Positions 11,995 to 61,133 of a DNA stretch of 62,210 nt are shown piece after piece. The position numbers and the translations under genes were made by a program. Origin of the DNA: Zunongwangia pacifica (GTDB taxonomy: Bacteria > Bacteroidota > Bacteroidia > Flavobacteriales > Flavobacteriaceae). Position 1 is the stretch's first letter. Each line of letters opens with the position of its first letter. The stretch lies in contig NZ_JAKHSK010000028.1 of assembly GCF_023499215.1 (NCBI RefSeq), forward strand, positions 1 to 62,210, given 5' to 3'. A model generated the notes under the pieces. That model saw only the letters and a list, made by a program, of their open reading frames with translations, was not told the DNA's origin and did no database searches.

Positions 11995-13554
11995 ATGAAA
12001 ATTGCAGATTTATACATACGGGTAAGCACGGATGAACAGGCCGACAAGGGATACTCACAACGGGATCAGGAAGAGCGTTTGCGCAAGTATTGTGAAATCA
12101 ATCATATTCAGGTACGGAAAGTGATTTATGAGGATCATTCGGCAAAAACCTTTAAACGTCCTTCCTGGACAAAACTGCTAGGTATCCTACGTAAATCCAG
12201 AGGACAGTCTGATTTCATATTGTTTACCAAATGGGACAGGTTCAGCCGGAATGCAGGGGATGCTTATCAGATGATCGGTACATTGAGACGATTGGGAGTA
12301 GAACCGCAGGCAGTAGAACAACCACTCGATTTATCCATTCCTGAAAATAAAATGATGCTCGCCTTTTATCTGGCTGCTCCTGAAGTGGAAAATGACAGAA
12401 GAGCTCTAAATACCTTTCATGGGATGCGAAGGGCTAAAAAAGAAGGACGCTGGATGGGCCTTGCTCCAATCGGTTATAAAAACAAAATTGATGAGAGTGG
12501 TAGAAAATATATTGCGCCAAGGAAAGTCCAGAGTGACATAATGAAATGGGTATTCAAAGAATTGGCAAAAAACACTTTTAGCACCGAACAAATATGGAAA
12601 ACAGCTAGAGAAAAAGGGCTTAAATGCAGTAAAAATAATTTCTGGACAGCTATCCGTAATCCTATGTATTGCGGTAAAATATTTATTCCTAAATACAAAG
12701 ATGAAGAAAGTCAACTGGTGATGGGGCAACACGACCCCTTAATATCTGAAGCTTTGTTCTATGATGTTCAGGATGTGCTCGACGGTCGTAAGAAAATAAT
12801 GCGTACCAAAATAAAAGTAGATGACCGCTATCCCTTACGCGGTTTTGTCGTTTGTCCAGACTGCGGGCGTATGTTAACTAGTAGTAAATCCAAAGGGCGT
12901 TCCAAATATTATTATTATTACCATTGTTCCGGTGGCTGTAAATTCAGACAAAAAGCGGAGTATATGAACGATAAGATGGTTTCTGAAATCGGGAAATATG
13001 TGTATTCCATCCCTAGGCTCAACCTATTTAAAGAAGTCATTACTTCCGTATATAAATCAAAAACCAGAGACAGGATCGGAAATATACAGCAGTTAAAAAT
13101 TCGTTTACAGGATGAAAACAATAAACTAAGTAAAGCCAGGGAACTGCTTTTATGCGATGATATTGAAGCGGACGATTACCGAATGATGAAAGCGGATGCC
13201 GATAAAAAAATAAACAGGCTGGAAGCCAAACTCACAAGTTCGATTACAGACACGCAAAACGTGGAACCCCTGTGGGATAAGGCAATCAGCAATCTTTCAC
13301 AATTGGGCTATTTGTATGAAACCGGGACGATTACACAAAAAAGAAAGATCATTGGTTCGATCTTTCCTGAAAATCTGACTTTTGACGGATTTGAATATCG
13401 AACCACCCGGGTGAATGAAGCAATCAAGTATATCACACTGATAAACAAAGATTTAAATGGAAATAAAAATGGGACAAACTCATCATTTTTGAATTTGTCC
13501 CATCAAGTGACCCCGGCAGGATTCAAACCTGCAACCCTCAGAGCCGAAATCTGA
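11995..13554 (+). CDS. Large serine site-specific recombinase
   Basis: A 519-residue serine integrase expected to excise and integrate the element. The N-terminal resolvase domain has the motif YIRVSTDEQADKGYSQRDQEE with the probable nucleophile Ser11 and downstream KWDRFSRNAGD. A recombinase domain follows at about 160-270, then a zinc ribbon (CPDCGRML near residue 290, HCSGGCKF near 316) and a coiled-coil C-terminal part. The last 15 codons or so are the antisense of tRNA-Arg and about ten more lie in the tRNA's terminator. The true family C-terminus probably ends near residue 485-490, and the present tail depends on the integration site. Base composition is more A/T-rich than the tra genes. 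Confidence 0.9.
   Translation: MKIADLYIRVSTDEQADKGYSQRDQEERLRKYCEINHIQVRKVIYEDHSAKTFKRPSWTKLLGILRKSRGQSDFILFTKWDRFSRNAGDAYQMIGTLRRLGVEPQAVEQPLDLSIPENKMMLAFYLAAPEVENDRRALNTFHGMRRAKKEGRWMGLAPIGYKNKIDESGRKYIAPRKVQSDIMKWVFKELAKNTFSTEQIWKTAREKGLKCSKNNFWTAIRNPMYCGKIFIPKYKDEESQLVMGQHDPLISEALFYDVQDVLDGRKKIMRTKIKVDDRYPLRGFVVCPDCGRMLTSSKSKGRSKYYYYYHCSGGCKFRQKAEYMNDKMVSEIGKYVYSIPRLNLFKEVITSVYKSKTRDRIGNIQQLKIRLQDENNKLSKARELLLCDDIEADDYRMMKADADKKINRLEAKLTSSITDTQNVEPLWDKAISNLSQLGYLYETGTITQKRKIIGSIFPENLTFDGFEYRTTRVNEAIKYITLINKDLNGNKNGTNSSFLNLSHQVTPAGFKPATLRAEI
13469..13503 (-). terminator. Terminator of tRNA-Arg, embedded in the recombinase reading frame
   Basis: On the minus strand ATGGGACAAA and TTTGTCCCAT form a ten-base-pair stem starting five bases after the tRNA 3' end, followed by TTTTTATTT. 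It is read in sense by the recombinase frame on the plus strand. Confidence 0.75.
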
Positions 13555-13581
13555 TATTCTATTCAGTTGAACTACGGGGCC
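13508..13581 (-). tRNA. tRNA-Arg (anticodon UCG)
   Basis: A complete 74-base cloverleaf without encoded CCA. Acceptor GGCCCCG pairs with CGGGGUC; D stem GUUC/GAAU; anticodon stem UCAGA/UCUGA with loop UUUCGGC giving anticodon UCG; T stem GCAGG/CCUGC. Two oddities: D-loop position 19 is A and T-loop position 56 is U, so the usual G19-C56 tertiary pair is replaced by A19-U56; the Levitt pair is A15-U48. The gene begins four bases after the stop of the GIY-YIG gene on the same strand and its 3' end is the border of the conjugative element. It probably relies on transcription from upstream through the GIY-YIG gene. Confidence 0.92.
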
Positions 13582-13585
13582 AATT

Positions 13586-13822
13586 TTACAATATTTCTTT
13601 TAAAAATTCTCTACCTGAACCAGACTTTAAATATTTCTCATATTTTCTGGCTTCAGCTCTAGATTTAAACTTTTCGGTAAAAACTAACTCCCAGGGAATA
13701 AAACCCTTGGTCGATCTATTTTCACCCTGATTATGTTGCTTTAATCTCTTTTCAACATCCTGCGTCATCCCTTTGTAAAGACGTCCATCTTTTAAACTCC
13801 GCAGAACGTAAACATAATACAT
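13586..13822 (-). CDS. GIY-YIG nuclease family protein (UPF0213-like)
   Basis: A 78-residue single-domain GIY-YIG protein: YYVYVL at residues 2-7, LYKGMT at about 17-22, conserved Arg in KRLKQHNQG, and E-KYLK near the end. Such stand-alone domains are common in Bacteroidota; their biological role is unsettled, with nuclease activity inferred from the fold. The frame is open upstream to a GTG at 13900, but those 26 residues translate a tRNA fragment and a palindromic repeat (LPAGRQV), so ATG 13822 is the true start. It lies between a broken tRNA-Arg 5' half and an intact tRNA-Arg that starts four bases after its stop. Confidence 0.88.
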   Translation of the reverse strand: MYYVYVLRSLKDGRLYKGMTQDVEKRLKQHNQGENRSTKGFIPWELVFTEKFKSRAEARKYEKYLKSGSGREFLKEIL

Positions 13823-13847
13823 TTTATTTACAACCCTATTATTCTTT

Positions 13848-13906
13848 GCCGAAACCTGCCTGCCGGCAGGCAGGTCTGATGCGCTATTCAGTTGCGCCAC
13901 GGGGCC
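13848..13906 (-). pseudogene. tRNA-Arg 5' half, interrupted by a 20-bp palindrome
   Basis: On the minus strand 13906-13875 reads as tRNA-Arg positions 1-31 and 13854-13848 as positions 32-38 (TTTCGGC), with a 20-base palindrome inserted exactly between them. After position 38 the sequence diverges completely. The D stem is GCGC/GCGC against GUUC/GAAU in the intact gene, and both are fully paired, so this is a different tRNA lineage and not a simple copy. A19 is shared. Not functional as it stands. Confidence 0.8.
13855..13874. repeat. 20-bp perfect palindrome CCTGCCTGCCGGCAGGCAGG
   Basis: A member of a dispersed palindrome family seen in related form at 54857-54877, 55397-55413 and 61783-61803. 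When read in frame it gives LPAGRQ. Here it interrupts a tRNA fragment. Confidence 0.85.
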
Positions 13907-13937: not shown

Positions 13938-14387
13938 TTAATTAGATAATTTCTTTTTTACAATTACAGAAATGGTCTTACCATCGGCTTTACCGGCAAG
14001 TTCTTGAGAAGCAACTCCCATTACCTTACCCATATCTTTCATTCCGTTAGCACCGGTTTTAGCAATAATTTCTTCAACCTTTGCCTCAATTTCTGCTTCG
14101 CTTAACTGTTCCGGTAAAAACTGAGATATTACTTCTACTTGTTTTTCTTCCGGTTCTGCTAAATCTTCACGATTTTGCTCTCTATAAAGTTGAGCACTAT
14201 CCTTACGCTGCTTCACTAACTTCTGTACAAGTTTAACTTCCTCTTCTTCAGTTAATTCTTGCTGACCGTTATCTGTTTTAGCTAAAAGTATAGCTCCTTT
14301 TACCGCTCTTAAAGCCTCTAAAGCTACCGAATCTTTTGCTTTCATCGCAGCTTTCATCTGAGTCATTACGTCTTTTTCTAAGCTCAT
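13938..14387 (-). CDS. GatB/YqeY domain-containing protein
   Basis: A 149-residue soluble protein, the usual length for the YqeY family, with the N-terminal helical part (about 1-90, highly charged) and the C-terminal tail domain related to the end of GatB (FLPEQLSEAEIEAKVEEII, GANGMKDMGKVMG, ISVIVKKKL). The GatB tail domain binds tRNA in the amidotransferase; a stand-alone YqeY has no proven function, though a link to tRNA or amino-acid metabolism is often inferred. It lies upstream of the tRNA-Arg/GIY-YIG unit on the same strand, 31 bases from the tRNA fragment, so these may share a transcript. Confidence 0.9.
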   Translation of the reverse strand: MSLEKDVMTQMKAAMKAKDSVALEALRAVKGAILLAKTDNGQQELTEEEEVKLVQKLVKQRKDSAQLYREQNREDLAEPEEKQVEVISQFLPEQLSEAEIEAKVEEIIAKTGANGMKDMGKVMGVASQELAGKADGKTISVIVKKKLSN

Positions 14388-54267: not shown

Positions 54268-54390
54268 CTTTTCTCTTTTTAAACTTTTGAAAGCTTAAAA
54301 CCGACTGAAATAGGCTAAAACCCTTTGATGGGTGCGCGCTTTGTTATGATCAAGAAAAGTTTGTGAGAATAATTCGATGAAGAATCTATC

Positions 54391-54490
54391 TGTTATCTAT
54401 CCGGAAATCGGTAGAACGTAGCACCTTCTTTGTTGGCAAAGGGTTGCTAAGGCTTCAGCGGGTCTATTCCCTCGGCCTTTCTTGATAACA
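54391..54490 (-). promoter_or_regulatory. SAM-I (S-box) riboswitch of metX-thrA
   Basis: On the minus strand TGTTATC (54490-54484) closes with GATAACA (54397-54391). Inside are the S-box signatures AAGAAAGGCCGAGGGAATAG, ACCCGCTGAAGCC and TTAGCAACC, then a CCTTTG/CAAAG-AAGG arm and GGTGCTA. About 120 bases separate it from the ATG. A short ACCC/GGGT hairpin with TTTT near 54316-54333 may be the expression platform, but it is weak. SAM binding would lower expression of the methionine-branch fusion. Confidence 0.92.
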
Positions 54491-54727
54491 ATCAGTAAGT
54501 TTCTGAACTTTGTGACCACAAATTACGGTAATAATTTGCGATCGACCAACATTTTTTTATAAATAGTAGTTAATAGTGAGAATTGAGTAATTAGATTTTT
54601 GCCTTTTGGCTCATATTTAATTTGAAATGAGCATGAGATGCTGAAACAAGTTCAGCATGACTTCAAATATTAAAATCAATTTTAGAGCAAATCTATTCTC
54701 TATATTCTTTTTTTCTCTACACTTTTC

Positions 54728-60491: not shown

Positions 60492-60542
60492 GTTATGCTA
60501 TTCTATTGGCTATCAAAAAAAGAAGATAAGGAAAGTCTGTTT

Positions 60543-60657
60543 GTTATCTATCTACGTAAAATACGCAGTAGAAGGTAGCACCTTCTCCCAATATCGTTTA
60601 GATAAGGAGGGTTGCTAAGGCTTCACAGGGTCTAATCCCTCAACCTTTCTTGATAAC
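60543..60657 (-). promoter_or_regulatory. SAM-I (S-box) riboswitch of metH
   Basis: On the minus strand GTTATC (60657-60652) closes with GATAAC (60548-60543). Conserved segments: AAGAAAGGTTGAGGGATTAG, ACCCTGTGAAGCC, TTAGCAACC and GGTGCTACC. A TACTGCGTATTTTACGTAG hairpin forms the last arm. The third arm is longer than in the other riboswitch. There is no obvious terminator in the remaining 51 bases, so control may be on translation. Confidence 0.93.
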
Positions 60658-61133
60658 GCTAATAAATTTATGAACTGAGGCCGCTAATATACGGCGATCT
60701 ATTATAATGACAAGAGAATGAGTAAAAATCTTAGTTTACTTCTTCTTTATTACTGAAAAAAAATTAATCAATTATTTCCTTAAAATAATTCTGTTCATTT
60801 TTTCCATTGATGAAAAAACGAACCAAAAAAATCTAGGCTTACGAATCTTGCTTGAAATTGTATGTTCGGAAGCTAAATTTTAGAAACTCGCTTCGCTCAA
60901 ACAGCCTAAAATTTTTCACGCTTCGCTCACTTTCAATTTTACAAGCAATTTTCGATAGGCCACAAAAAAGATTCAAAATAAGAAATCGATTTTTAATTCA
61001 GTATAAGTCATCCTGAACTCGATTCAGGATCTCATCACATTTTCTGCTTTATGAGATTCCGTACCTCCCGATAGTTAGTTATCGGAACGGAATGACTGTA
61101 GTTGTTTAATTTCAATAAAAGGAAAATCAAGTT
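60658..61133. other. Intergenic region with dispersed repeats, no gene
   Basis: Contains a Bacteroidota-type repeat starting near 60795 (TTTTTTCCATTGATGAAAAA, then CGAACCAAAAAAATCTAGGC), a CTCGCTTCGCTCAAACAGCC segment near 60888, the 22-base block at 60937 shared with 61912, and from 61005 a GTCATCCTGAACTCGATTC repeat ending GGAATGAC with a CCCGATAGTTAGTTATCGG inverted repeat inside. Confidence 0.65.
60937..60958. repeat. 22-base repeat, copy 1
   Basis: TTTTACAAGCAATTTTCGAT plus AG, identical to 61912-61933, about 975 bases away on the same strand, in both cases at the end of a longer dispersed repeat. Confidence 0.75.

Follow-up and report, generated by a model that had tools for sequence, protein, structure and literature searches.

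The question raised by this locus is how a nuclease gene of the GIY-YIG type comes to lie between two copies of the same tRNA gene in a bacterial chromosome. The DNA analysed, hereafter called the window, is a stretch of 62,210 nucleotides (nt) from Zunongwangia pacifica (NZ_JAKHSK010000028.1, assembly GCF_023499215.1) that represents one entire contig of a draft genome. On its minus strand, a small GIY-YIG gene is flanked by a broken and a whole copy of tRNA-Arg. Sequence comparison leads us to favour, by a modest degree, the view that this locus belongs to a broadly distributed family of minimal mobile units that are based on tRNA genes, comparable to the SegB element of phages. The recurrence of such units at the tRNA genes of many bacteria suggests that tiny mobile elements sparing their tRNA form a family that has drawn little notice.

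The preliminary description of this DNA had reported, on the minus strand, a tRNA 5' piece, 25 bases, a 78-codon GIY-YIG gene, four bases and a complete tRNA-Arg(UCG). ARAGORN, Rfam (60 bits) and Pfam agreed with this order, which is preceded by the yqeY gene. The 5' piece had been taken for tRNA positions 1-38. It does derive from tRNA-Arg, but it consists of nt 1-32, a 20-bp perfect palindrome that had been overlooked (CCTGCCTGCCGGCAGGCAGG) and nt 33-39. The interruption of this piece (13906-13848) after nt 32 falls exactly on the boundary between the anticodon stem and loop in the ARAGORN structure. The palindrome is present in a single copy in the window and was recovered in none of 100 shuffled sequences. 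The reported difference between the D stems was genuine: the broken copy carries GCGC/GCGC and the whole tRNA GTTC/GAAT, the 6 mismatches over 39 aligned bases all lying in the D stem. The complete unit measures 325 bp and the GIY-YIG gene is the sole gene within it. The longest open reading frame called mechanically (13586-13900) begins inside the broken tRNA copy and crosses the palindrome in frame. Such a start within a tRNA piece is a likely source of wrongly annotated N-termini, and genes of this kind are easily misread.

Features of the tRNA-Arg/GIY-YIG locus and its neighbours (positions are those of the window)
Feature	Coordinates	Strand	Basis
Broken tRNA-Arg copy, nt 1-32, GCGC/GCGC D stem	13875..13906	-	Sequence; alignment to the intact tRNA
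20-bp perfect palindrome at the anticodon-stem/loop boundary of the broken copy	13855..13874	.	Sequence; same position in G002, G004, G280
Broken tRNA copy resumed, nt 33-39 (TTTCGGC)	13848..13854	-	Sequence
25-base spacer ahead of the GIY-YIG start codon	13823..13847	-	Sequence
GIY-YIG nuclease gene, 78 codons + stop, catalytic domain only	13586..13822	-	Pfam PF01541, 61.8 bits; profile, 157 bits (profile built with the window protein included)
AATT between stop codon and tRNA	13582..13585	-	Sequence
Intact tRNA-Arg(UCG), GUUC/GAAU D stem	13507..13581	-	ARAGORN; Rfam RF00005, 60 bits
yqeY-like gene, outside the unit; flank marker for locating the locus in relatives	13938..14387	-	Pfam PF09424
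Large serine recombinase of a separate element, outside the unit, entering from the tRNA 3' side	11995..13554	+	Pfam Resolvase, Recombinase, Zn_ribbon_recom

The same locus was located in relatives downstream of yqeY. In two congeners (G001 and G003), a single plain tRNA-Arg follows yqeY; its D stem is GCGC, and there is no GIY-YIG gene. A third (G005) has one tRNA-Arg with the GUUC D stem, again without the gene. One unit resembling that of the window is found in G002. In G004, four tandem units of 316 bp precede one whole tRNA, two of these units being identical and the others differing by 12 and 14 bases, and a Z. atlantica contig (L048) carries the same four-unit array. The unit is thus present at the yqeY-tRNA locus in three of the six genus members, and the empty, single and four-fold occupied states of one locus within a genus support its mobility. 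The whole tRNA of the occupied G004 locus is identical to the tRNA of the empty G001 locus, while the broken copy in G004 is interrupted by a hairpin. In G023, which is less closely related, the two units carry another hairpin, placed in the D loop, and the tRNA is followed by a third, decayed gene; decayed GIY-YIG copies were also seen at L036 and L046.

Besides the congeners G002 and G004, four further genomes among the 299 of the family carry the window palindrome at the identical point of the tRNA, beside a GIY-YIG gene. This recurrence indicates that the palindrome belongs to the arrangement and is no chance insertion in one strain. A mirrored form was observed in G104, G147 and G067, with a broken 3' piece behind the gene and the palindrome at the same point. 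The tRNA ahead of the gene is whole in G067 and G147; no complete tRNA was present in the stretch of G104 examined.

To estimate how widespread the arrangement is, a profile (A1) was built from eight tRNA-linked GIY-YIG proteins. It identified 462 relatives in genome contigs, the best 80 of which were kept and correspond to 79 loci. A complete tRNA on the same strand was present within 600 nt in 74 of these 79 loci. The gap between gene and tRNA is often 0-20 nt when the tRNA lies behind the gene and about 45-55 nt when it lies in front, and tandem arrays of units are recurrent. The associated tRNAs are those for Arg (four anticodons), Leu, Met, Asn, Lys, Phe and Glu, with Ala added among loci from the family genomes. 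The hosts are mostly Bacteroidota, together with one Chlorobiota locus (L068) and three loci of the Candidate Phyla Radiation (CPR), among which only the WWE3 locus L114 has a broken copy. A profile match at E 1e-5 was obtained in 211 of the 299 family genomes, and an adjacent tRNA was found at 29 of the 30 best-scoring loci fetched from them, one per genome. Among 40 hand-picked weaker matches (E about 2e-25 to 2e-17), a same-strand tRNA lay within 150 nt in 26 cases and within 450 nt in 6 more, and was absent in 8. None of four weak single-domain GIY-YIG paralogs of the window's genome has an adjacent tRNA. Since the survey was seeded with tRNA-linked proteins, the high linkage is valid for this clade, declines with distance and is silent on GIY-YIG genes in general. 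By eye, the four paralogs (L001, L002, L003, L005) each seemed to have other repeat families of inverted symmetry around them, which would fit a pairing of each GIY-YIG lineage with partner repeats of its own. Five GIY-YIG loci were examined on viral contigs. On one IMG/VR contig classed as viral (L129), a related gene has the palindrome and tRNA pieces on both sides; on another (L130), the gene ends at the first base of a tRNA-Arg(ACG) recognised by ARAGORN, and no broken copy was found.

The combined set comprised 111 loci, including six pairs that represent one copy seen twice and a few species present twice. The tRNA lies behind the gene at 85 loci (type A) and in front of it at 19 (type B), and 7 have no tRNA nearby. 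A broken copy could be aligned at 91 loci: 75 of type A and 16 of type B, where it is a broken 3' piece behind the gene. The anatomy of the unit, read from the sequence, is that of a free-standing GIY-YIG gene between two direct copies of one tRNA, one whole and the other truncated and interrupted by a GC-rich hairpin. Hairpin inserts (at least 14 nt, with a minimum free energy of -4 or lower) were found in 88 of the 91 broken copies (73 of type A and 15 of type B), L051 being scored as having none although the palindrome is visible in its sequence. Only 40 of 1560 shuffled inserts reached the stability of the real ones. Fifteen loci have inserts at two or more positions, a raw count in which L049 is an alignment artefact. 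The insert sequences vary, with ends of the form CCYGCC...GGCRGG in 46 of the 75 distinct inserts. Their commonest positions are the D-loop/D-stem junction (after nt 22), the point ahead of the D stem (after nt 9) and the edge of the anticodon stem and loop (after nt 32). An exact helix boundary is occupied by 59 of the 75 distinct inserts, compared with 18.1 expected from position alone; this count ignores common descent among rows and includes inserts misaligned as judged by eye (L049, L096, L097, L100) as well as true exceptions (Leu nt 14, Lys nt 22). The absence of inserts from the whole tRNA is partly a matter of definition, because ARAGORN had to recognise it.

These comparisons bear on the model first proposed for the locus, in which a cassette of the GIY-YIG gene and a replacement 5' half entered after base 38 of the resident tRNA and rebuilt it, leaving the old 5' half behind. 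Entry of the gene into a tRNA locus with retention of an intact tRNA is supported by the empty loci of G001 and G003, and the D stems of the two window pieces (6 mismatches over 39) do look like different alleles; GCGC is the state found in the outgroup L014 and in three of the five other genus members. The remainder of the model found no support. Rather than stopping at a fixed junction, the aligned broken 5' copies terminate anywhere from nt 21 to nt 74, many of them at nt 28-39, and the copy in L084 is nearly full-length. Nor is the 5' end the only one concerned, as the tRNA stands in front of the gene in 19 of the 104 tRNA-linked loci, 16 of them with a broken 3' piece. An imported foreign 5' half is not the general case: 69 of 73 type A rows have 0-3 differences between the two 5' pieces, the other four being the window's own locus, counted twice (6 differences), L084 (5 of 74) and L146 (4 of 41). 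G002 and Mesonia share the gene, yet in each of them both tRNA copies have the host's own D-stem allele. The GUUC/GAAU stem occurs in G005 without the gene, showing that this allele exists in the genus independently of any cassette; the preliminary description had itself named such a finding as evidence against its model. Which D-stem allele was the resident one is left undecided by the genus tree, on which both readings would need three changes (parsimony counted by hand); the idea of a foreign 5' half comes from the window alone. Taken as a whole, the cassette model appears very unlikely.

We also considered a passive origin, in which ordinary unequal recombination duplicates tRNA genes, a GIY-YIG gene is carried along between the copies, and the redundant copy collects mobile palindromes because it tolerates them. 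The palindromes are indeed able to occur on their own. They are dispersed in some genomes and, as judged by eye, some solitary ones lie within other inverted repeats; no GIY-YIG match was present within about 1.5 kb at 28 of 30 palindrome loci (L164-L193). Hairpin-interrupted tRNA 5' pieces without a GIY-YIG match also exist upstream of tRNA-Asn, tRNA-Ile and tRNA-Trp. In these pieces (L171, L192, L181, L170), which are perhaps solo remnants or leaders, a palindrome around nt 9 is followed by a hairpin resembling GCTCAG..CTGAGC. By eye, the palindrome was also noticed within an apparent IS3-type transposase gene of the window's genome (L038 1500, L042 1500). Across the 299 family genomes, the palindrome and a strong GIY-YIG match (E 1e-15) occurred together in 46, the palindrome only in 13, the GIY-YIG match only in 45 and neither in 195 (Fisher 1.8e-17); when at least 3 palindromes were demanded, the numbers were 16, 2, 75 and 206 (Fisher 1.7e-7). 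This association is partly circular, because the units contain the palindrome, and the genomes are non-independent. In 345 genomes of the phylum, the exact pattern of the D-loop-type palindrome had two matches, one in a GIY-YIG/tRNA-Arg unit and one with neither. A passive origin is difficult to reconcile with the tight same-strand adjacency of gene and tRNA, often 0-20 nt and within 600 nt at 74 of 79 loci, and with the presence of hairpins in 88 of 91 broken copies. Purifying selection on the gene, its apparent transfer between genera and the clustering of tRNA labels on its tree, presented below, speak against it as well, and we judge it unlikely.

The Pfam GIY-YIG domain spans residues 1-68 of the 77 scanned, and the only other match is the overlapping T5orf172. 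Residues Y5, Y16, R26 and E62, which we take to be the catalytic-type residues of the domain, are each conserved in 117 of 118 proteins. Compared with the window gene, the ratio of nonsynonymous to synonymous substitution rates (dN/dS) was 0.055-0.080 in six comparisons and undefined in a seventh, indicating from sequence that the gene is under purifying selection. On a tree of the 118 proteins, calculated from few alignment columns, tRNA/type labels change 35 times, compared with a mean of 73.6 after shuffling; none of 200 shuffles gave a value as low, although near-copies among the proteins add to this clustering. Even across families, GIY-YIG lineages therefore tend to keep to a single tRNA. 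Transfer between genera is suggested by G002, whose GIY-YIG gene shows 97.5 and 98.3% DNA identity to two copies in Mesonia oceanica, whereas the flanking yqeY genes are 80.4% identical and the DNA further downstream, when forced into alignment, 39%. Both tRNA copies carry the D-stem allele proper to each host.

We then searched the 45 nt upstream of each tRNA copy in type A loci for TAnnTTTG, which is presumably the -7 element of Bacteroidota promoters. The motif precedes the broken copy in 26 of 68 loci and the whole tRNA in 2 of 68, shuffled sequences giving 3.3%. Being present before the broken copy and nearly never before the whole tRNA, it suggests that the whole tRNA is made by reading through the gene, and transcription of this tRNA via read-through of the GIY-YIG gene is probable. 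Such a position in a tRNA operon could also be how a gene serving the host, for instance in tRNA-linked defence or in the control of tRNA dosage, is retained. Strong purifying selection and the probable read-through are compatible with this possibility, and in PMC13096335 the amplification of a tRNA by SegB is described as countering a tRNA-cutting defence in phage T6. A service to the host is nevertheless difficult to match with a patchy distribution (three of six genus members), with the use of different tRNAs in different hosts, with recurrent tandem copies and with decayed copies such as L036 and L046. We regard it as very unlikely.

A free-standing GIY-YIG element, one tRNA copy of which is free to decay, is the simplest account, as it covers the mirrored forms, the arrays and the transfer. 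Cutting, homing and a role for the hairpins are what we infer from the sequences. The putative nuclease would break the DNA of a tRNA gene, and recombinational repair between the tRNA segment of the unit and the resident tRNA would install the unit between two tRNA copies, so that the essential tRNA would never be lost. Further rounds would yield tandem arrays, as demonstrated for phage SegB. The GIY-YIG gene would use the tRNA's own promoter, and the whole tRNA would be reached only through the gene, thereby tying the host to the transcript. The redundant tRNA copy could then decay, and mobile hairpins resembling repetitive extragenic palindromic (REP) sequences could enter it at stem edges. 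Their entry may be helped by a structure-sensitive nuclease; alternatively, the hairpins may block re-cutting and loss by recombination between the repeats.

In a bolder and rather unlikely variant, the target would be the folded tRNA gene: a bare SLX1-like GIY-YIG domain would recognise the cloverleaf of single-stranded tRNA-gene DNA (or of the transcript) and cut at the edges between single-stranded and double-stranded parts, these cuts both installing the gene between tRNA copies and receiving the CCYGCC...GGCRGG hairpins. The position of the hairpins at stem edges and the similarity of the protein to SLX1 and UPF0213 make a structure-guided nuclease possible. If so, the unit would be a structure-guided mobile element, and its partner repeats a novel class of REP-like sequences, mobilised by a GIY-YIG enzyme.

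Several points weigh against the mobile-element account. The predicted 78-residue protein has no DNA-binding extension that would explain a specificity for the tRNA gene, and a whole tRNA adjoining the gene would be expected to be cut as readily as an empty one, which leaves the avoidance of self-cutting unexplained. The hairpin step is the weakest, since recombination alone does not account for the near-universal hairpins in the spare copies, and palindromes also lie elsewhere, as at the 28 of 30 palindrome loci described above. The tRNA copies are mostly near-identical and share on average 2.2 leader bases, compared with 0.85 in shuffles, so that local duplication fits no less well than import; a short leader, too, is common to G002 and Mesonia (32 of 36). 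Twenty of the 111 loci have no broken copy or no tRNA, including two of the three CPR loci (L091 and L117) and the viral L130. Finally, the rows are related by descent, and synonymous divergence (dS) was near or beyond saturation (near or above 1) in several of the pairs used for dN/dS.

The serine recombinase gene on the plus strand, unmentioned in the preliminary description, runs into the tRNA from the other side, and the unit might have been brought by the element to which it belongs, which takes up 11995-13554 and DNA to the left of it. Recombinase DNA does follow the tRNA in G000, G002, G004, L048 and Salegentibacter L051. Six of eight unit loci tested (L049, L050, L052, L054, L060 and L081), all with GIY-YIG units, gave no recombinase match; recombinase carriage was rejected as a general cause and seems to us extremely improbable. 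In G002 (C1, about 3738983-3775953), a second tRNA 3' end lies 37 kb from the first, and the DNA beyond it resembles the beginning of another serine-recombinase element, so that two such elements may be stacked there in tandem. Elsewhere in the window, two S-adenosylmethionine (SAM) riboswitches are located at 60541-60659 and 54390-54491, minus strand (Rfam RF00162).

tRNA genes are classic landing sites of mobile DNA, mostly of large elements that restore the tRNA 3' end. The unit described here, about 300 bp long and with no gene other than that of a 78-codon nuclease, seems to reside at many different tRNA genes of Bacteroidota and, in one case each, of Chlorobiota (L068) and CPR (L114). 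It raises the questions of how a nuclease without a recognition domain picks one tRNA, whether SegB-type amplification of tRNAs takes place in bacterial chromosomes too, and which agent mobilises the GC-rich palindromes in these genomes. Among the papers listed by a literature search, in which subscription papers and preprints were little covered, none described tRNA-nested GIY-YIG units in bacterial chromosomes.

Among known systems, elements with tyrosine or serine integrases use a tRNA gene as their site and leave it functional. They carry an integrase gene and an attachment-site repeat that restores the tRNA 3' end; the 325-bp unit has no integrase gene, and it is the 5' part that is duplicated in the window and either tRNA end across the family. 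Group I introns place foreign DNA at the anticodon-loop position of tRNA genes. They were rejected as an explanation, since a whole tRNA follows the unit and no Rfam group I intron reached the gathering threshold in the window. Relatives of the protein at the profile level are small GIY-YIG proteins of the UPF0213 type (PDB 1zg2, E 4.6e-9; 1ywl, 2.2e-7), followed by SLX1 chains (1.5e-3 and 2.3e-3); we know of no tRNA-nested arrangement for UPF0213 proteins or SLX1. Short dispersed palindromes are also represented by REP sequences, with their REP-associated tyrosine transposases (RAYT), and by Rickettsia palindromic elements (RPE). The hairpins of the window family resemble both in this respect, but have other sequences, adjoin a GIY-YIG gene and sit at tRNA helix edges. 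Seg-type homing endonucleases are known to possess a DNA-binding region beyond the catalytic domain. The window gene shares with them a GIY-YIG domain with conserved residues, a location outside any intron or intein and absence from some alleles; its 78-residue product, with GIY-YIG over residues 1-68, lacks the additional region. Short dispersed palindromes are described in PMC3733652 as entering genes and repeats. The nearest parallel is offered by SegB, described in PMC13096335 and PMC2988022 as a free-standing GIY-YIG homing endonuclease of T-even phages encoded beside tRNAs, segB of T4 lying between tRNA-Arg and tRNA-Ile. In phage T6, breaks and recombination driven by SegB amplify a tRNA-Tyr/segB segment in tandem (PMC13096335), with microhomology shared by the 5' end of the tRNA and the 3' end of segB (both sources). 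In both systems, the GIY-YIG gene adjoins tRNA genes and tandem tRNA-nuclease repeats are formed. SegB is phage-borne, whereas the window family, known here from sequence, is chromosomal in bacteria, has a bare catalytic domain and usually has next to it a copy of the same tRNA that is broken and bears a hairpin.

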